From the NCBI GenBank assembly GCA_947364235.1, contig CANARY010000002.1:186001-250000 (forward strand): 64,000 bases of DNA, written 5' to 3'. This DNA comes from an uncultured Candidatus Melainabacteria bacterium (GTDB taxonomy: Bacteria; Cyanobacteriota; Vampirovibrionia; Gastranaerophilales; Gastranaerophilaceae). Below are positions 5,083 through 39,247 of the stretch, in pieces; the stretch's first letter is position 1, and the number at the start of each line of letters is the position of its first letter. The notes under the pieces are model-generated. The model searched no databases and had not been told where the DNA came from. It was given only the letters and a program-made list of their open reading frames with translations. A program made the position numbers and the translations under genes.

Positions 5083-5818
5083 TATCCCAAATTCAATGAA
5101 AAAAGATTTCAAATATACTTTTTGTCCAGGCTGTGATCATGGTATTGCGGTAAGGCTGGTTGCAGAGCTTATTGATGAAATGGGGCTGAAAGAAAAAACT
5201 ATTTGCTCAACTTCAATTGGGTGTTCAGTATTTTTATATGATTTTCTTGATGTTGATTGTATAGAAGCTCCGCATGGCAGGGCATGCGCTTCTGCAACAG
5301 GGGTTAAAAGAGCTAATCCTGATAAATTTGTTTTTACATATCAGGGAGATGGCGACTTTGCTTCTATCGGGCTTGCGGAATCAATGCATACAGCGCTTCG
5401 CGGAGAGAAAGTTGCTGCTATTTGTATTAATAATACAACTTATGGAATGACAGGCGGTCAAATGGGGCCGACTACAATTATGGGGCAAATTACTACAACT
5501 TCTCCAGCTGGAAGAAATGTTGATTATAACGGATATCCTATTAAGATAGCTGAGCATATTGCACTTTGTGACGGTACAGCTTTTAGTGCCAGGGTTGCTC
5601 TTGATACTGTTCCTCATATTAATGAGGCTAAAAAAGCACTTAAAAAAGCTTTTCAAGTTCAATTGGACGGCTTAGGTTTCGGGTTTGTTGAAATTCTTTC
5701 TTCTTGTCCGACAAATTGGCATATGAGTCCTGAGGATGCGCATAAGAGAGTTCGAGAAGAAATGATGCCGGTATTCCCTCTCGGAGTGTTCAAAGACATT
5801 ACAGCGGAGGTTAAATAA
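5066..5818 (+). CDS. 2-oxoacid:ferredoxin oxidoreductase, beta (TPP-binding) subunit
   Basis: A 250-residue thiamine-pyrophosphate-binding subunit. It has CPGCDHG near residue 20, a conserved SIGCS segment, and the TPP/Mg motif region GDGDFASIG...NNTTYGMTGGQ. The start at 5066 overlaps the alpha subunit by 17 bases and is supported by a GGAGG-type site 7 bases upstream; an internal ATG at 5096 is less well placed. It works with alpha, gamma and delta in the cytoplasm. Confidence 0.92.
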   Translation: MQQVFSIPNSMKKDFKYTFCPGCDHGIAVRLVAELIDEMGLKEKTICSTSIGCSVFLYDFLDVDCIEAPHGRACASATGVKRANPDKFVFTYQGDGDFASIGLAESMHTALRGEKVAAICINNTTYGMTGGQMGPTTIMGQITTTSPAGRNVDYNGYPIKIAEHIALCDGTAFSARVALDTVPHINEAKKALKKAFQVQLDGLGFGFVEILSSCPTNWHMSPEDAHKRVREEMMPVFPLGVFKDITAEVK

Positions 5819-6342
5819 TGGAAAAGAATTTCATATTAGCAGGTTTTGGCGGTCAGGGGATTCTGCTTGCAGGTACGATTCTTGCAAATGCTTTTATGCT
5901 TGATGACAAAAATGTAACTTGGTATCCTTGCTATGGAGCTGAGATGAGAGGCGGGACTGTAAACTGCGAAATTGTAGTTTCTGATAATGAGGTAAGCTCT
6001 GTTCATAAACAAGATACAGATTATGCTCTTGTATTGAACCAGCAGTCTTTTGATAAATTTGTTCAAAGAGTTAAATCTGGCGGTACAATAATTGCAAATT
6101 CTACTCTTGTTGCAGAAAGTCATCCGAGAAACGATATTAAATATGTTTTCGCTCCAATGGGTGAAATGGCGAACGAACTTGGTACAAGCAAAGTTACTAA
6201 TGTTGTTTCTCTTGGTGTTTTAGCTTCAGTTTGTGACATTGTTAACAAAGCTTCTCTTGCTCTTGGTATTGAAAAAGTGCTTGGAGAAAAGAAAAAAGAC
6301 TTGCTTCCTTTAAACATCAAAGCGTTAAATATGTATGACTAA
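5818..6342 (+). CDS. 2-oxoacid:ferredoxin oxidoreductase, gamma subunit
   Basis: A 174-residue gamma subunit of the pyruvate/ketoisovalerate oxidoreductase family. The N-terminus FGGQGILLAGTILA and the PCYGAEMRGGTVNCEIVVSD signature are diagnostic. The ATG shares one base with the beta stop codon, indicating translational coupling. It is the last gene of the delta-alpha-beta-gamma operon. Confidence 0.92.
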   Translation: MEKNFILAGFGGQGILLAGTILANAFMLDDKNVTWYPCYGAEMRGGTVNCEIVVSDNEVSSVHKQDTDYALVLNQQSFDKFVQRVKSGGTIIANSTLVAESHPRNDIKYVFAPMGEMANELGTSKVTNVVSLGVLASVCDIVNKASLALGIEKVLGEKKKDLLPLNIKALNMYD

Positions 6343-6373
6343 TTTATTATATTTATACTTGTGATGTAAAGAT

Positions 6374-6423
6374 TTGTAACAATTTTTAAAAAACCTTAAA
6401 GTTTACAAAAAAAATGCCGTTAT
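6374..6423 (+). promoter_or_regulatory. Sigma-28-like promoter with upstream TTGTAACAA box (site 1)
   Basis: TTGTAACAA (6374-6382) is followed 14 bases later by TAAAGTTT (6397-6404), an 11-base spacer and GCCGTTAT (6416-6423). TAAAGTTT-N11-GCCGATAA is the known FliA consensus, so the -35 matches 8/8 and the -10 begins with the diagnostic GCCG. Transcription would start near 6430, giving a leader of about 38 bases before the MGMAASQ protein. The same block occurs at 20.9 and 39.3 kb. Confidence 0.8.
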
Positions 6424-6467
6424 ACATAATATAGAACAAAATAAAAAGGAAAAAGGAGTACGACACT

Positions 6468-7907
6468 ATGGGAATGGCAGCATCACAAGCAAGATTGTTA
6501 TCATTACAAGCAAGACAATCAAACCTTGAGTACCAAGGTCAACAAATAAACCAGGAGAGATCAATTTTATCTCAGCAATGTACAGCATTGTATAATAGCT
6601 TGTTGTCAATGACTGTTCCAACTCCTCCTGCTACGACAGATTTTCAAACTGTTAAGTATACAGGTGAAATGGGTGCTACAAAGTATTCATTTGACGCTAA
6701 TAGTATTAAGCCAAATGGTGGAGATACTTATACTGTAACAATGCAGGAGCAGAAGCATGGTGATTCTTTGCAGAAAAATGCTCAAATCGCTTTAGTTGAT
6801 ACAAATTCGGCTGGTGGTTTTAAAGGGATTGAGCTTAACACAGGTGCAACTCAAACTACAACTACAACTATTTCAACAGGAAAAATGCTTCCTGATTCAA
6901 ATGGTACAAAATATCTTGTACCGTTATCAGAAGCTACAATTGAAGCTGGTACTGTTGGAACATATTATAAAGCAAGCGGCAATGGTTATATAATGTATAC
7001 CGGTCCTGCAGATGCTGAATGTTATAGACTTGGTGCAAAAACAGAAAATGCTATTCAAGTATCTGAAGAAACTATAGAAGTAAAAGATGTTACTAATGAT
7101 GGCGTAGGCTTTATTCAAAGAAGTGAATTAACTGGTATTTTCATTTTAGAAAATGGCGAAGTAAGGCCGGCTACAATAAACGATTTTACTCAAGATGTTG
7201 ATATGCCAAATGTTTTAAAGTTTAAATCAGGGGTTAAATATATTCAACAGTCTTCAGATGGTAAATCTTATCAGCTAAAAGGCGATGTTGCCGGTGTAAC
7301 TGTTGGTAATAAAGGTGTTCACAAACTAACAGAAGAAGAAAAACAAAAATACGGCGATGCAATTTCAAATTGCGGTTTGAAGGATAAAGACGGAAATGCT
7401 TATGGACCGGATGACTTCATGATGTACTATGATGATAAAAACGGTGCAGTTTTTGTTCTCGAAAGTGATGTTTTTGATGGAAACAATAATGCTATTACAT
7501 ATAATTATGTTCCAAATGGTGAATTCTCTAAGAATCAAACTTATGATGAAGCAAAACTTGTATTTGACCCGACAAATGGAAGAATAACAGAGATTGCAAT
7601 TCCTAATTATGATGAAGAGGGCAATGTTACATCTTGGACTTCTATTTCAGTAAAAGCTGAAACTGTTGTAGATGAAGCTGCATATAATGATGCTTATGCT
7701 AAGTATGAATATGATACTTATATTTACGATCAGAAGAATAAAGAAATAAATGCTAAGACAGAAATGATTCAGCAGGAAGATAAGAACTTAGAGTTAAAAC
7801 TTCAAAGGCTTGATAATGAAAGAACTCAGATTACAACAGAAATCGAAGCGGTTGAAAAAGTTATCAATGATAACATCGAAGGTTCATACAAAACGTTCTC
7901 AGGCTAA
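6468..7907 (+). CDS. MGMAASQ-family protein, probable flagellum-associated or exported coiled-coil protein (copy 1)
   Basis: A 479-residue protein of unknown function. The first ~60 residues are helical and begin MGMAASQARLLSLQARQSN; the middle (about 65-420) is rich in Thr, Asn, Asp and Tyr and looks like beta-rich surface sequence; the last ~70 residues form a coiled coil ending NIEGSYKTFSG. The same N- and C-terminal plan occurs in the protein at 21017. Helical ends around a variable middle recall flagellin and hook-type axial proteins, but I see no homology to named families. There is no Sec signal peptide. A strong AAAAAGGAG site precedes the ATG, a sigma-28-like promoter lies upstream and a terminator follows, so it is transcribed alone. 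Flagellar export is inferred. Confidence 0.75.
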   Translation: MGMAASQARLLSLQARQSNLEYQGQQINQERSILSQQCTALYNSLLSMTVPTPPATTDFQTVKYTGEMGATKYSFDANSIKPNGGDTYTVTMQEQKHGDSLQKNAQIALVDTNSAGGFKGIELNTGATQTTTTTISTGKMLPDSNGTKYLVPLSEATIEAGTVGTYYKASGNGYIMYTGPADAECYRLGAKTENAIQVSEETIEVKDVTNDGVGFIQRSELTGIFILENGEVRPATINDFTQDVDMPNVLKFKSGVKYIQQSSDGKSYQLKGDVAGVTVGNKGVHKLTEEEKQKYGDAISNCGLKDKDGNAYGPDDFMMYYDDKNGAVFVLESDVFDGNNNAITYNYVPNGEFSKNQTYDEAKLVFDPTNGRITEIAIPNYDEEGNVTSWTSISVKAETVVDEAAYNDAYAKYEYDTYIYDQKNKEINAKTEMIQQEDKNLELKLQRLDNERTQITTEIEAVEKVINDNIEGSYKTFSG

Positions 7908-25791: not shown

Positions 25792-27567
25792 TTGTACACG
25801 GAACTTCTTGCACCAGCTAAAGATAAAGAAACTGCGATTGCTGCCATTGACTGCGGAGCGGATGCTGTTTATATGGGAGCTTCTGCTTTCGGAGCGAGAA
25901 GAAACGCTCCTAACTCTGTTGATGACATTAAAGAAGTTGTTGAGTATGCTCACAAGTTTTGGGCAAAAGTATTTATTACAATAAATACTATACTTACAGA
26001 TAGTGAACTTGATGAAGCTGTACAACTTGTTAAAAAACTGGATAAAATCGGAGTTGATGCTATTATTGTTCAGGATATGGGGCTGGCAGAACGCTTGATG
26101 GATGCGGGGATACCAATTCACATGAGTACTCAGTGCGATAACCGCGAGGCAGAAAAAGTTAAATTCTTTAACGATATAGGAGTTTCAAGAGTAGTACTTG
26201 CAAGAGAACTTTCTCTCAAACAAATAAAAGAAATTCACGAACAAAATCCCGATTTAGAACTTGAAGCATTTGTTCACGGTGCACTTTGTGTGTCATATAG
26301 CGGTCAATGTTATTTAAGCCAGTATATTGGCGGCCGCTCTGCAAATAGGGGTGAATGCGCGCAGCCATGCCGAAAGAAGTATACAGTAGAAACTATAGAC
26401 GGCAAAGTTATTGCAAAAGATATTCATGCGCTTTGTTTAAAAGATTTCAATGCTTCTAAACATATTAAAGAAATGATTGAAGCAGGTGTGTTTTCATTTA
26501 AAATTGAAGGCAGGCTGAAAGAGACTGGGTATGTAAAAAATGTTACAGCGTTTTACCGGCATGAGCTGGATAAATATTCTGCAAAATCTTCATCCGGAAG
26601 ATGCATTTACCCCTTTGAGCCTAATCCCGAAAAAAGTTTTAACCGAGGATTTACAGATTATTTCTTAGATAGAAGAAAAGATTGTTTTAATTTTGACTCT
26701 CCAAAATCAAAAGGTGAGTACCTTGGGAAAATTGTTGAGGTTAAGAAAAATTGTTTTAAGATAAAAACTGATAAGAAAATAAATGCGCAAGATGGTTTAA
26801 CAGATGGTGTAAATGGTTTTCTTGTTAACAAAGTAGAAAACGGGTTTATTTATCCGAATAAAGAATTTAGTCTTAAAGCCGGAGTTAAAATTTATCGAAA
26901 TTCTGACGCTGAGTTTGAAAAACTTCTTGCTCTGCCTGTAAAACGCCAAATCGGTATCAAAGCAGTTATTGATGGAAAACTTACTCTGACAGATGAAGAC
27001 GGAGTGACGGTATCCATTGAGCTGCCGAAGGGAGAAAAAGCTAATAATCCTGAAAAAATGAAAGAGACTTTTATAAAACAGTTTTCTAAAACAGGAGAGA
27101 GCGATTTTTATATTTTCAATATAAAAATCGTTGCAGAGCTTCCGTTTATGCCTGTTTCTGCAATCAATCAACTTCGGAGAGAAGCGTTTGATTTGCTTAT
27201 GCAAGAAAGATTAAAACAGTATAAACGCGAGCAGGGTAAAAAATTAGACTATACTCAGTTTTATAAGAAAAAACTTGATTACCGTGCAAATGTTCATAAT
27301 GACTCTGCAAAAACGTTTTATGATAAATGCGGTGCTGAAGTTTGTGAAATGTCTTTAGAAACTAAGCTTCCAAAAGATGAAGTTGAGTTAATGCGTACAA
27401 AACATTGTATAAAATATGCGCTTGGGATATGTAAATCTCCAGAAAGGCTTGTTTTAAAAGACGAGTTTGGAAAAGCTTATCCTTTGAAGTTTGACTGCGC
27501 TAAATGCGAGATGACAGTTATTGCGCCGCAGCCTGCTGCAAAGCAGCTGCTTCCTGCTGAGCTTTAG
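25792..27567 (+). CDS. U32 family peptidase / RlhA-like RNA hydroxylation protein
   Basis: A 591-residue U32-family protein. The N-terminus ELLAPAKDKETAIAAIDCGADAVYMG, the AFVHGALCVSYSGQCYLSQ signature, and cysteines in GECAQPCRKKY are diagnostic. The C-terminal region fits the extended RlhA/YdcP type (DUF3656-like); relatives hydroxylate 23S rRNA or tRNA rather than act as proteases. It starts with TTG directly after the previous stop codon; no later start keeps the conserved N-terminus. The last 50 bases overlap the 3' end of the convergent gene. Confidence 0.85.
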   Translation: MYTELLAPAKDKETAIAAIDCGADAVYMGASAFGARRNAPNSVDDIKEVVEYAHKFWAKVFITINTILTDSELDEAVQLVKKLDKIGVDAIIVQDMGLAERLMDAGIPIHMSTQCDNREAEKVKFFNDIGVSRVVLARELSLKQIKEIHEQNPDLELEAFVHGALCVSYSGQCYLSQYIGGRSANRGECAQPCRKKYTVETIDGKVIAKDIHALCLKDFNASKHIKEMIEAGVFSFKIEGRLKETGYVKNVTAFYRHELDKYSAKSSSGRCIYPFEPNPEKSFNRGFTDYFLDRRKDCFNFDSPKSKGEYLGKIVEVKKNCFKIKTDKKINAQDGLTDGVNGFLVNKVENGFIYPNKEFSLKAGVKIYRNSDAEFEKLLALPVKRQIGIKAVIDGKLTLTDEDGVTVSIELPKGEKANNPEKMKETFIKQFSKTGESDFYIFNIKIVAELPFMPVSAINQLRREAFDLLMQERLKQYKREQGKKLDYTQFYKKKLDYRANVHNDSAKTFYDKCGAEVCEMSLETKLPKDEVELMRTKHCIKYALGICKSPERLVLKDEFGKAYPLKFDCAKCEMTVIAPQPAAKQLLPAEL

Positions 27568-29209
27568 CTTGTGCTTTTAACTGATTCCATTGGCTTATAT
27601 CTTTGATGTCGTTTAGTGTTTTTAGTGCATCTTCAAGCTGCTTCTTTTCCTGCTCAAGCTGGTTTAAATAAGCTTCTGTCTGTTCAGGTGTCATATCAAT
27701 TATGGCACTTCCGAGTAATGGTACAGAAAATTCACGCTGCCATTGTGCTAATGTAAGCGGAGCCGGCGAAGCAGGTGATGTTAAAGCAATTTTTGTTAGT
27801 TCTCCGTATTTACCTGGATTCTTGCCTCCGATTGCTAACTGATATTCGTTTTTGCGCCAGGTTGCAGGTTTCCACCAGTGTTTTTCAACGTTTGGAGACG
27901 GAATATAATCAGAAAGTTCTGATGCATATTTATCCGGCTTTGCTGCTTTTACACGCATAACGCATTCGCGAAGTTCAATTAGTTCTTTGAAGTCTTTGCT
28001 GTAAGTTTCTTTTAAAACATCAAGCTCTGCTTTAGATTTTATGTTTTTGAATTTTTGTAAAGCTTTACGCTGTTTTACAAGTGCTTTTCTTTCATTCCAT
28101 AAATTTTTTAAAGTAGTTCTGTCTGCTCGATTTGTATTTTTAATTTGTCTATTAAGCTCAGTGATTCTTTGCTGTGTTGACTTCTCCATTTGGCTGTATT
28201 TGTTTTCGTATCTTTTTTCCCAGCTGTTAAAGTTTTCCCAGGCATTTACCGCTTTATTTTTCCAGGCTTTGAAGAAACCTGATGTACCTCCGCCTTTCGC
28301 TGTTATTAGCGCAGCATCTGTTTTCATTGCCTGTGCTGTACCTTTTACAGCGTTTACTGTCATGTCTTTAGTGAAATTAGATACGGCTCTTGTTACTCTG
28401 CCGCCTATACTTGCAGAAGTCGAAGCTGTAGAAGCTCCTGATGTTCTGAATGCTTTACCCAGGCCTCTCATGCCGGCAGCTGACGCAATTCCGACAAATG
28501 CTCCTGAACATATATCTTGTCTAGCTTGTTCTTTTTCTTCTTCTGTTGCTGCATTATTTAATTTTTTAGCACCTTTGTATACTCCGACAGCTCCGCTTCC
28601 AATTCCATAAGCAAGCAGACTGTAACCTATCGCAGGGCCTGCGAAAGGTATAAAGCAGGCGCCGATTGCTGCTGCTGTTATAGCAACATTAGTGAGACAT
28701 TTTTTTAGACTAAATTTCCCATCTTTATCGTAGCCGGCAAGGCTCTTACCCATATTTGCAAGTGCTGTTCCTGCACTTGCAGCCCACTCTCCGGCTTTTT
28801 GCCAGAATCCTTTTTTCTTAGGTTTCAAGGCTTCAGTATCAACTGTTCCGTCTTCTTTAAGTTTTACGCCTTCAAGTTTTGCAGATTCTACAATACTGCT
28901 TCCGTCAGATTTTTTACCTTCTTTAATGGTTTCAATCATTTTTGATTGTTCTGTAATTAAATCTCTTGTTTTACTTATTTCTTTAGATTTTTCTCGTATA
29001 AATTCTATATTTGTTTGAGTATTTTCACTTTCTTTGTATTTTTCTTTTATCCATTCTTCATAAGAGTCTGGAGTTGAAACAGAGCTTGCTGGAGCTTGCC
29101 AAATAGGCATTTGAAAACCATTGAACATATTTGGACTCCAGAAGTTGTTGTTCATTGTAAAATTGTTTGGATTCCATAGCGGTAATTGAAAGTTAAAACT
29201 TAATCCCAT
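27518..29209 (-). CDS. Large protein of unknown function with Gly/Ala-rich hydrophobic core and coiled coils
   Basis: A 563-residue protein. The N-terminus is unusual, rich in Asn, Phe, Trp and Pro (NFQLPLWNPNNF, NNNFWSPNMFNGF). Residues ~50-95 are a charged helix. Residues ~165-210 are hydrophobic and Gly/Ala rich (VAITAAAIGACFIPFAGPA). The rest is basic helical sequence, ending with an Ala/Gln-rich coiled coil. No Sec signal. The plan of coiled coil plus Gly/Ala-rich hydrophobic segments resembles the protein at 37661 and, loosely, type III translocators, but no family is recognised. The upstream region has A/T tracts and a TGTAAACATTTGTAAAT sequence but no sigma-28-like site. Confidence 0.7.
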   Translation of the reverse strand: MGLSFNFQLPLWNPNNFTMNNNFWSPNMFNGFQMPIWQAPASSVSTPDSYEEWIKEKYKESENTQTNIEFIREKSKEISKTRDLITEQSKMIETIKEGKKSDGSSIVESAKLEGVKLKEDGTVDTEALKPKKKGFWQKAGEWAASAGTALANMGKSLAGYDKDGKFSLKKCLTNVAITAAAIGACFIPFAGPAIGYSLLAYGIGSGAVGVYKGAKKLNNAATEEEKEQARQDICSGAFVGIASAAGMRGLGKAFRTSGASTASTSASIGGRVTRAVSNFTKDMTVNAVKGTAQAMKTDAALITAKGGGTSGFFKAWKNKAVNAWENFNSWEKRYENKYSQMEKSTQQRITELNRQIKNTNRADRTTLKNLWNERKALVKQRKALQKFKNIKSKAELDVLKETYSKDFKELIELRECVMRVKAAKPDKYASELSDYIPSPNVEKHWWKPATWRKNEYQLAIGGKNPGKYGELTKIALTSPASPAPLTLAQWQREFSVPLLGSAIIDMTPEQTEAYLNQLEQEKKQLEDALKTLNDIKDISQWNQLKAQAKAQQEAAALQQAAAQ

Positions 29210-32553: not shown

Positions 32554-32560
32554 AATAGAT

Positions 32561-32594
32561 AAATGGGTACGATTTATATAAATCGTACCCATTT
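32561..32594 (+). terminator. Perfect 15-bp hairpin after the GH13 gene
   Basis: AAATGGGTACGATTT, loop ATAT, and the exact complement AAATCGTACCCATTT. There is no long T run after it (ACTTTGTCTTT), so it may be a terminator or an mRNA-stabilising end. Confidence 0.7.
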
Positions 32595-32641
32595 ACTTTG
32601 TCTTTATTCATGTTAACATAGTTACAAAGGACGAAAAATTG

Positions 32642-32722
32642 ATGACATATTATTTTAACGCAAAACATCATCATACTCATACAATCCCGAAAGGGCTTGG
32701 AGTTTTGCGTTTTCTTAGTTGA
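32642..32722 (+). CDS. His-codon-rich leader peptide
   Basis: A 26-codon ORF, MTYYFNAKHHHTHTIPKG then LGVLRFLS, preceded by AAAGGA ten bases upstream. Four His codons occur within five codons (32666-32680). The arrangement resembles the leader peptides of histidine attenuators such as E. coli hisL. It is too short for ordinary ORF calling. The stop codon lies inside a set of alternative RNA stems (next feature). The following gene, however, is an unknown membrane protein and not a histidine gene. Confidence 0.6.
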   Translation: MTYYFNAKHHHTHTIPKGLGVLRFLS

Positions 32723-32791
32723 AACTCTCAGGGGAATTAGTTTTGGCGTTTTACTTTTAACCAAATTATTTACCCCCGGCTCTTTCGGGAT
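32657..32791 (+). promoter_or_regulatory. Attenuator-like leader RNA with mutually exclusive stems
   Basis: AACGCAAAAC (32657-32666), immediately before the His codons, pairs perfectly with GTTTTGCGTT (32702-32711). A second stem pairs ATCCCGAAAG (32684-32693) with CTTTCGGGAT (32782-32791) and extends inward by about four more pairs including two G-T pairs. The two stems cross, so they compete. A ribosome stalled at the His codons would cover the first arm and favour the second stem. No run of T follows the second stem, so control could act on translation of the gene at 32839 or on transcript stability. Confidence 0.55.
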
Positions 32792-32838
32792 ATAAGCAGA
32801 GAATGTAAAGAGTACGGTGAAAAGGAGAATTTAAAAAA

Positions 32839-34086
32839 ATGTCATTAACAGGTATAATATCAGCAATTGGTAATAATTCCAGTGTTTACCCTTTGATAGT
32901 ACGTGATTGCGGTATCGAAGTTCCTGCAAAAGCTGCTATGACTTATAATCAGAATTTAAAAGATTCTAAACAAATGGCGAATAATGCACTTAGAGAAAGG
33001 CTGATTGATGAGTACGGAACTTCAATTGTCTGGCTTGGCGGAATTCCTTTGATGAATAAGTTTGGTGACTGGATAATTAAAAAACTCGGTTATGATCCTA
33101 ATGTAAATATAACTTTATTGAAAGAAGATAATAAACAAGGGTTAAAATACAATATTGAGAAGTTTAAAAAAATTGCGCCGGAAGAAGTTAAGAGCATGGA
33201 AAAGGTTTTGAAAAATAAATCTGCTTATCAAAAACTTCTTGCGGGTAAGTTTATACTTTCTACAGCAATTCCTGTTGCGGTGATGGGTTATTTCCTGCCG
33301 AAAGCTAATTTTGCTCTGACAGACAAGCTTAAAAAGAGGCAGGATGCTGTTAAACCGATTGTTCAAGATACTTATGAAGCAAAAGGGGTAAATATAATTA
33401 CTTTCTCTTCCTCCCCTAGTCCTTCTTTCAAGGGGCTTTCTGCTTCCTTAGCAAATATGTCAACTGTGAATAAAATGGCTCTGACAGACGGCGGATTGAC
33501 TGTCGGCAGAGTTGGAACAGCAAGAAATAAGTATGAAGCTATGGAAAACGGTTTTAAAATGTCCATGATGATGTTTTTAAACTTTGTTGCTCCGATTTGG
33601 ATAGCAAAAGGGCTTGATAATTTGTCAGGAAGACTTTTTAATACGAATGTAAATCTTGACCCTAATCTTTTAGATGACAAAACTTTCTTAAAAGAGATTA
33701 AAGATGGAACTCTTAATATTCCTGAAAATAATTTTATTGAGTATCTTGATAAAAATCCGGATTCTAAAGTTTCTAAACTATGTGAAAAATATTGCGGCGT
33801 AAAGTATTTGAAAAACAGGATAAGAGATCCGCGTGAGTTTGTAGATGAAAAGAAAATAGGAAGCTTTTTAGACGAAGTCAGAAAATTTGCTCGTGATACT
33901 AAGGCTTCAAATAATGTTGAAAAATATGCTAAAAAAGCGCTTAGAGTAAAATCTGCAAATATTTTAGCAAATGTTGCTATCAGCAGCTTCCTACTTGCAA
34001 TGGTACTTCCAAAGGTAACATTTATATTAAGGAAAAAAGTTACAGGCTCTGATGCAGAACCGGGATTAATGACGAAGCAGGCTTAA
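32839..34086 (+). CDS. Predicted membrane protein of unknown function
   Basis: A 415-residue protein. Hydrophobic stretches lie near residues 135-160 (LSTAIPVAVMGYFLP), 243-262 (MSMMMFLNFVAPIWIA) and 373-398 (ANVAISSFLLAMVLPK). The rest is basic and helical, with an internal SPSPSFKG segment. An AAGGAG site precedes the ATG. It follows the His-leader RNA, which may control it. The last 21 bases overlap the convergent radical SAM gene. I do not recognise the family and see no link to histidine metabolism in its sequence. Confidence 0.7.
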   Translation: MSLTGIISAIGNNSSVYPLIVRDCGIEVPAKAAMTYNQNLKDSKQMANNALRERLIDEYGTSIVWLGGIPLMNKFGDWIIKKLGYDPNVNITLLKEDNKQGLKYNIEKFKKIAPEEVKSMEKVLKNKSAYQKLLAGKFILSTAIPVAVMGYFLPKANFALTDKLKKRQDAVKPIVQDTYEAKGVNIITFSSSPSPSFKGLSASLANMSTVNKMALTDGGLTVGRVGTARNKYEAMENGFKMSMMMFLNFVAPIWIAKGLDNLSGRLFNTNVNLDPNLLDDKTFLKEIKDGTLNIPENNFIEYLDKNPDSKVSKLCEKYCGVKYLKNRIRDPREFVDEKKIGSFLDEVRKFARDTKASNNVEKYAKKALRVKSANILANVAISSFLLAMVLPKVTFILRKKVTGSDAEPGLMTKQA

Positions 34087-37660: not shown

Positions 37661-39247
37661 TTATTTTTCGTCTTCTTTTTCTTCTTTTTCAGGTTTTTCT
37701 GTCTGGTTAGCTGCAGGAGGTTTCGGATTAAGTGCAGTTTCAGAACCTTCTTCAAGATTTTCTGTGACTTCATCCATATCTTCAAGGTCTTTTGGAATAA
37801 GTATTTCGTAGTCTTCAATTTCGTCCATCATTCCATCAAAATTTTCTATTGATTCATCATAAATATCGTTTGTGAATGATTTTAAATCTTGTGTATCTTT
37901 TCTCATACCTATTTCAGTTCCGATGTCGCCTGCCCAGCTAAATTGTTGTGCTGCACCGATTCCGCTTTGAGCAGCTCCAGCGGCGCCCATTGCTGCAAAT
38001 CCCCATGCCCAAGCTGTAAACATGCCGCCAGAAGCTGCAAATTTGCCCGCTTGTAATGCTGCTTTACCTCCGGAAGCTGCGTTTAATGTTTGTGCTCCGG
38101 CTTCTACATAGCACATTGTTCGTGCAGCGTTGTCAAAGCTTTCTGCATAATCAGTAAGTCCTTCGACTTCAGCAACAGTTCCTGCTGCGTTGTCGTAAGT
38201 GTCTTGGTAAGTACCCATTTCGTCATAAATATCACCGGTAGTGTCAGTCGCATCTTCTTGTGTTTCTTGTATTCTAATTCCAAGTTCCTGCATAAGTGGT
38301 ACAAGTTCTTTTAATAATTCTTTTTCATCTTCTGTTAATGTTTCTCCGGACTTGACTTTTTCCATTAATGCATCATAAGAAGCTTTGTACATATCATATT
38401 CAGATTTTTTATCTTCTATTTCGCTGTTAGCATCTTCGTTAGTCATTTGAGCTTCGTCTGCAAGTGAAGTTAACTCATCTCCAGCAGCGCTCATATCACC
38501 TTGTGCTTCGCTTAAAGCACCTTGCGCATTCATCATTTCATCTTGAAGCGCATCACACGCTTCTTTTTGTTCTTTATTTGGTTTTTTGATAGAATAAGCT
38601 GTTCCTGTTGCAAGAGCTAATGGCGCCGTGATTATCCAGCCAACATTTTGACTTGCAATTTTGTCACCTGCTTCTTTGCCTGCTGCATCTCCAATTGCTT
38701 TTTTACCGGCTTCTGCTACAGCTTCTTCTGTTGCAGTTTCTGCAGCTTCTCCCAAAGCTTTTTTGCCAGCCTCTGTGATTGCTTCTTCTGTAGCTCCTTC
38801 AATAGCTTTTGTTGCAGCTTTACCGGCTACTTGTTTAACGCTGTTATTTATAAGGCCGCCACCTAACGTAGAGCCGAGTTTACTTGCAACATTCTTACCT
38901 ATTGTTGAGCCTAATACTCCGGCAGCACCTGCTGCTGCATCAACAGTGCCCCTTGTAATCATTCCTGCTTTCCCGCCGTCATAACCAGTCTGCTCTTTTG
39001 CTTGATTTTTACCGTTGTTTTTGTACATTGAGTAATCATCATCTTCTATTTCATAAGCATTCTCATCATCTAGTGCCGTAGCCTGCCAGTTATTCAGCTG
39101 ACCATTCCAAGTCTGGGTAATTTCACCCATATCTCTTGCGGAAATACCCATTGTATTATTGCCGTAATTATAGTTATACCAGCATTTATACGCATAAGCC
39201 TGCGAGTTTAATGCATTTGATAAACAGAATGAATCTTGAATTGCCAT
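37661..39247 (-). CDS. Ala/Gly/Glu-rich coiled-coil protein with hydrophobic segments, translocator-like, sigma-28-type promoter
   Basis: A 528-residue protein of unknown function. In order: a Tyr/Asn-rich N-terminus (~1-40), an acidic stretch, a Gly/Ala-rich segment (~90-130), a tandem repeat of about 20 residues built on TEEAITEAGKKALGEAA (~150-200), a hydrophobic stretch (WIITAPLALATGTAYSI), a long coiled coil (~225-370), a second hydrophobic Gly/Ala/Trp stretch (MFTAWAWGFAAMGAAGAA), and an acidic, Pro/Lys tail. No Sec signal. Two hydrophobic parts flanking coiled coils resemble type III secretion translocators in plan only. The promoter matches those of the two MGMAASQ genes, so flagellar co-regulation is likely. 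Confidence 0.72.
   Translation of the reverse strand: MAIQDSFCLSNALNSQAYAYKCWYNYNYGNNTMGISARDMGEITQTWNGQLNNWQATALDDENAYEIEDDDYSMYKNNGKNQAKEQTGYDGGKAGMITRGTVDAAAGAAGVLGSTIGKNVASKLGSTLGGGLINNSVKQVAGKAATKAIEGATEEAITEAGKKALGEAAETATEEAVAEAGKKAIGDAAGKEAGDKIASQNVGWIITAPLALATGTAYSIKKPNKEQKEACDALQDEMMNAQGALSEAQGDMSAAGDELTSLADEAQMTNEDANSEIEDKKSEYDMYKASYDALMEKVKSGETLTEDEKELLKELVPLMQELGIRIQETQEDATDTTGDIYDEMGTYQDTYDNAAGTVAEVEGLTDYAESFDNAARTMCYVEAGAQTLNAASGGKAALQAGKFAASGGMFTAWAWGFAAMGAAGAAQSGIGAAQQFSWAGDIGTEIGMRKDTQDLKSFTNDIYDESIENFDGMMDEIEDYEILIPKDLEDMDEVTENLEEGSETALNPKPPAANQTEKPEKEEKEDEK

Follow-up and report, generated by a model that had tools for sequence, protein, structure and literature searches.

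A leader ORF rich in histidine codons, accompanied by mutually exclusive RNA helices, precedes a nearly histidine-free membrane protein in Gastranaerophilales, and the gene for this protein is nearly confined to species lacking the histidine biosynthesis pathway. We propose that the leader is an attenuator that senses charged tRNA-His and that the protein serves histidine acquisition; taken as a whole, this proposal appears fairly likely, with parts that differ in strength. Histidine-specific ribosome-mediated attenuation is very probable, as judged from the leader sequences and their covariation. Given attenuation, our assessments of the acquisition role range from a nearly even call to a good one.

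A histidine-rich leader ORF upstream of a membrane protein gene

The analyzed stretch of DNA, hereafter the window, spans 64 kb (G000:C2:186001-250000) and is part of a 1.93-Mb Gastranaerophilales-type genome, the closest named relatives of which are MAGs of Candidatus Gastranaerophilales and Melainabacteria. The leader ORF (MTYYFNAKHHHTHTIPKGLGVLRFLS) lies on the plus strand at positions 32642-32722, including the TGA stop; its coding part (32642-32719) consists of 26 codons, and a ribosome site, AAAGGA, is located upstream at 32626-32631 on the same strand. The cluster of His codons, CAT CAT CAT ACT CAT (HHHTH, 32666-32680, plus strand), is the proposed sensing element. The putatively controlled gene (32839-34086, plus strand) encodes a helical membrane protein of 415 aa. 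On the other side, a strong, perfect hairpin of 16-17 bp (32560-32595, plus strand), with T-rich tails and a terminator-like appearance on both strands, sits between an upstream amylase-like gene and the leader and thereby separates the two. Among the ATG-initiated ORFs of 8-45 codons in the window, no second one combines a comparable His cluster with a ribosome site.

The RNA of the leader contains two helices that cross and therefore exclude each other. Arm A (AACGCAAAAC, 32657-32666, plus strand), which lies before the His codons, is perfectly complementary over 10 bp to arm B (GTTTTGCGTT, 32702-32711, plus strand). Arm 1 (ATCCCGAAAGGGCT, 32684-32697, plus strand), made up of the codons that follow the His run, forms 14 pairs, including two G-U pairs, with arm 2 (GGCTCTTTCGGGAT, 32778-32791, plus strand), and this 1:2 stem is the proposed ON structure. 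When each region is folded alone, the z-score is -3.95 for the 1:2 region (32684-32791) and -3.24 for the A:B region. The first-pass annotation of this DNA had described a 26-codon ORF with a ribosome site encoding KHHHTH, an arm just before the His codons with a perfect 10-bp partner downstream, and a crossing stem of 10-14 bp; the ORF and the A:B pairing are borne out by the sequence, and the crossing stem reaches the full 14 pairs.

The OFF structure is the weakest link for the window genome. No T-run terminator was found in the window leader, and the segment 32698-32845 does not fold better than its shuffled versions (z +1.37). A candidate anti-ribosome-site segment (CTTTTAACC, 32754-32762, plus strand) can pair with GGTGAAAAGGA (32816-32826, plus strand) in the ribosome-site region of the membrane protein gene, a weak helix of 8 pairs with one mismatch, where a near relative (L034) has a helix of 12 pairs.

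Conservation and covariation of the leader

Orthologs of the 415-aa gene, whose products are about 41-77% identical to the protein of the window, are present in 65 of the 117 sampled genomes of the family, and a second collection, which overlaps the first, provided 78 usable loci. All 65 orthologs have, 119-251 nt upstream, a short ORF that contains a His cluster, and a His-rich leader ORF is likewise present at each of the 78 loci. The number of His codons per leader ranges from 3 to 7 and is mostly 4 or 5, and their positions shift between species. Among related leaders, changes are distributed over codon positions 1, 2, and 3 as 1188, 1000, and 1048, and of 862 His positions compared, 791 remain His, with 25 CAT/CAC exchanges among them. 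Thus, the leader peptide drifts but His stays, which points to reading of the codons rather than of the peptide.

The helices are conserved as well. In an alignment of 28 leaders, changes on both sides are seen for 13 of the 15 pairs of the 1:2 stem. The ON structure gathers 59 compensatory cells, compared to 17.3 in shuffles (none of 500 as high) and to 9-18 when the structure is slid by one to three columns. The alternative structure, which combines a 2:3 terminator with an anti-ribosome-site helix (TTCAATTC/GAATTGGA), gathers 36 cells compared to 13.6 in shuffles (again, 0 of 500). The arms of a given species also outperform arms swapped in from other species (1:2, 65/65; A:B, 58/65; 2:3, 61/65; anti-ribosome-site helix, 47/65), in a comparison that favors own arms because these were chosen by best pairing in each species. 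The column-based compensatory counts are the firmer test, with the structure likewise taken from one member of the family.

Many relatives possess a U-tailed terminator, a helix masking the ribosome site of the gene, or both, and T-rich tails follow arm 3 in many of them (e.g., AAGAGGCTATTT+TATTTGTT in L077). From these sequences, termination of transcription and masking of the ribosome site both appear to be in use within the leader family, either singly or together. The position of the leader stop codon also differs: in some relatives it falls at the end of arm 1, and in the genus of the window it lies past this arm.

A covariance model of the leader matched 55 of the 117 genomes, with a single match in each, always directly in front of the ortholog, and with zero matches in genomes that lack the gene. 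In each of these matches, what follows the leader, a question raised along with the first reading, is an ortholog of the gene at 32839. The attenuation logic recognized in that reading holds up in the relatives, given that the His codons are conserved and the arms covary and exclude each other; loss of the His codons or of the complementary arms in close relatives, the outcome that the annotation had named as speaking against it, was sought, and what we found was the His-rich ORF at 65 of 65 and 78 of 78 loci together with the 13 covarying stem pairs.

Searches for other copies and for known RNA families

With both gathering and permissive thresholds, Rfam gave only chance matches in the window and in 11 loci of relatives, mostly of microRNA models to the upstream terminator hairpin. 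The histidine operon leader family of Rfam has no match in the window or in these 11 loci, and the T-box family has none on the plus strand of the window, with 10.4 bits on the minus strand against a cut-off of 93. A DNA-level search of the same genome detected no further copies, and among the inspected matches to the His-codon pattern in this genome, none stood out as another convincing His leader in front of an unrelated gene. Nor was such a leader seen among the inspected matches from 29 genomes searched for a pattern of Shine-Dalgarno (SD) sequence, ATG, and His codons, where matches were judged by the matched letters; one divergent paralog in G031 has a His leader. In the open-licence literature, we found no paper that describes a leader of this kind in Melainabacteria or Gastranaerophilales.

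A membrane protein depleted of histidine

The window protein contains 0 His among 415 aa, and the 78 orthologs together contain 13 in 32,029 aa, with 65 of the 78 devoid of any. Based on the background frequency, which is 1.26% in long frames of the window and 0.79% in the paralogs, 250-400 His would be expected over these orthologs. In a tree built from 22 His-leader proteins together with 21 relatives, the former group as a single clade (support 100/100), and the remaining members carry 1-8 His. Elsewhere in the window, a 528-aa protein (37661-39247, minus strand) also has zero His, and the product of its neighbor (27518-29209) has at most one.

Searches of Pfam, NCBIfam, and PDB sequences yielded no credible relative, and no profile of a known histidine or amino acid transporter scored above the cut-off. 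An AlphaFold2 model is all-helical, with four long helices and a mean pLDDT of 82. In a fold search of the PDB, the hits to solved structures did not rise above noise (Foldseek E of 1.4 or worse), and in the comparison with transporter folds such as the helices of ABC exporters the best structural match, Z 7.0 (rmsd 7.2, 120 aligned residues), is within the range of unrelated helical bundles. Examination of synteny showed no neighboring gene conserved beyond the near relatives.

Link to the loss of histidine biosynthesis

The window genome lacks hisD, hisG, and hisB. Among 184 genomes of the family, hisD is present in 3 of the 117 that have the gene, compared to 38 of the 67 that do not, and this computational association extends to hisG and hisB in a subset, both agreeing with hisD in 26 of the 26 genomes tested. 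Because the genomes are related, the raw Fisher p of 1e-17 overstates their independence. The exchange of the gene and hisD recurs, however, within genera g6, g22, and g41 (within-genus permutation p 0.003); for example, in g22, three genomes (G021, G084, and G264) have hisD without the gene and four (G057, G107, G244, and G251) have the gene without hisD. Thus, the earlier statement that the gene has no evident histidine role no longer holds, since its presence tracks the loss of histidine biosynthesis. The same annotation had offered that the gene product could be a histidine transporter component, for which the searches gave no family or fold match, or a sensor of charged tRNA-His, the latter a description that fits the leader and not the protein.

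In G278 (G278:C10:29015-32376), hisG, hisD, and hisB are located close together and have Pfam scores above those of the scattered copies in relatives, which suggests that a his cluster was acquired from elsewhere and the His-leader gene was retained. Conversely, 29 of the 184 genomes (e.g., G024, G240, and G261, the first of which belongs to the genus of the window) have neither hisD nor the gene, indicating that the gene is not the sole solution to histidine auxotrophy. Such genomes must obtain histidine by another route.

Proposed mechanism and alternative explanations

We infer the following order of events. When charged tRNA-His is scarce, the ribosome would stall at the His codons and cover arm A, leaving arm 1 free to pair with arm 2 as the latter emerges. 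With 1:2 paired, the OFF structures, whether the 2:3 terminator found in many relatives, the ribosome-site helix, or both, would be blocked, and the membrane protein would be made. When His-tRNA is charged, the ribosome would run on, A:B would re-form, arm 2 would be free, and expression would be off. In those relatives where the leader stop falls at the end of arm 1, a ribosome at the stop codon would cover this arm and thus lead to the OFF state; given that the stop in the genus of the window is past arm 1, the ribosome positions there should differ from the textbook scheme.

Being nearly free of His, the protein could be made under histidine starvation, and because the gene occurs almost only in species without the histidine pathway, it most likely serves histidine acquisition, through uptake or salvage. 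This assignment is derived from three indirect lines, namely the reading of histidine by the switch, the avoidance of histidine by the protein, and the distribution of the gene, and not from homology.

The alternative that survives best retains attenuation by charged tRNA-His and regards the protein as a general starvation or envelope protein, for which low His-tRNA would stand in as a signal that nutrients are short. The lack of transporter similarity would fit such a protein, as would the different conserved leader of the distant paralogs, which implies that the family overall is not histidine-specific. Yet the gene is all but confined to genomes that lack hisD, and the two replace each other within genera, whereas a general starvation role should not depend on histidine synthesis; we consider this explanation unlikely.

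Much less plausible is that the His-rich leader acts as a metal-binding or arrest peptide, i.e., as a nascent-chain sensor of, for example, Zn or Ni, rather than as a codon counter. HHxHH motifs are able to bind metals, which speaks for this possibility. However, the peptide drifts outside its His residues, changes are spread about evenly over the codon positions, and across the family no conserved residues other than His were found at fixed positions. Furthermore, the stop position and the spacing vary, the A:B and 1:2 helices are kept species by species in attenuator geometry, and metal sensing would leave both the His depletion of the protein and its tracking of his gene loss unexplained.

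We give even less credence to the idea that RNA pairing (CATCATC with GATGATG) is the reason for the His codons, which would then be a mere by-product: in several relatives the His codons themselves do pair with arm B, but in the window, where arm A precedes them, the His codons are kept nonetheless, CAC occurs alongside CAT, and the His positions shift while 3-7 codons are retained. Finally, the notion that an AT-rich intergenic region produced the His-rich ORF and the stem by chance is refuted by conservation before every ortholog, with covariation, and is left without support after comparison of the relatives.

Paralogs and a possible origin of the His leader

Upstream of paralogs of the controlled protein, the conserved short ORF is a different one: it ends in NLxWGL followed by the stop codon and often has IRR near the start. 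This leader was observed at loci L063 (G000:C12, before 5667-6845), L221-L224, L226-L232, L235-L239, and L298; examples are MDKHSKKLMNLKWGL, from the window genome, and MKNIRRSLQINKGVQRFMNLIWGL. A homolog in G248, from another family of the order, also has the NLxWGL leader. This leader looks like an arrest-type peptide. Given its presence in the distant paralogs and in G248, it seems that, in one branch that arose by duplication, the His leader took the place of an older one.

The divergent paralog from G031 (L233, G031:C93:1450-3400) has 1 His in 461 aa and a His-rich upstream ORF of its own (MFLIYNLHFNHHHHCEHHC...), which runs into the start of the gene without a spacer of attenuator length. 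Possibly, this is a second route to the same control.

Tentatively, and with less than even confidence, we propose that these membrane proteins of Gastranaerophilales are a new family that acquires scarce nutrients under leader-peptide control, and that one duplicate took on a His attenuator in place of the arrest-like NLxWGL leader of the older members, purged its own His, and replaced the lost pathway as a new type of histidine importer.

Relationship to known systems and implications

Leader attenuators of his operons occur in Proteobacteria and in some Firmicutes, where newly described ones contain runs of three to five His codons; some hide the ribosome site, and the attenuators there control his operons (PMC9413887). 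The leader described here shares with them a short ORF with His codons, exclusive arms, the proposed logic of stalling, and, in many relatives of the window genome, a terminator or a sequestered ribosome site. Unlike the leaders of PMC9413887, it belongs to a different lineage and precedes a membrane protein without a family match rather than his enzymes or a known transporter; in addition, it often has an HHxHH-type arrangement, its main helices, A:B and 1:2, cross, and it has no match in Rfam. Histidine T-box riboswitches precede his genes and hisXYZ transporters (PMC9413887). By analogy with these, the charging of tRNA-His would be sensed on behalf of histidine-supply genes, but in the mechanism proposed here sensing would proceed via translation of the leader.

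Leaders of the TnaC and SpeFL kind, which encode arrest peptides, likewise control a downstream gene through a short ORF. The NLxWGL leader of the paralogs resembles them, whereas the His leader, although it too is a short ORF before the controlled gene, keeps only its His codons and no fixed peptide motif. With respect to the protein, one study concerns a bias of amino acid biosynthetic enzymes against the cognate amino acid (PMC4209129). The present protein similarly avoids the amino acid that is scarce when the protein is needed, but the avoidance is nearly complete and concerns an uncharacterized membrane protein of auxotrophs. The case thus works like the known his attenuators combined with an extreme form of cognate bias, in a new lineage and on an uncharacterized gene.

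These observations add a lineage to ribosome-mediated His attenuation as described for Proteobacteria and some Firmicutes, and provide an example from nature of a protein whose composition is adapted to its synthesis when the very amino acid that its switch would sense is lacking. For an uncharacterized protein family of a major uncultured gut lineage, they suggest a concrete and testable role, the signal for which needs no homology: the regulator appears to read His, the protein avoids it, and the gene is found where the pathway is gone.
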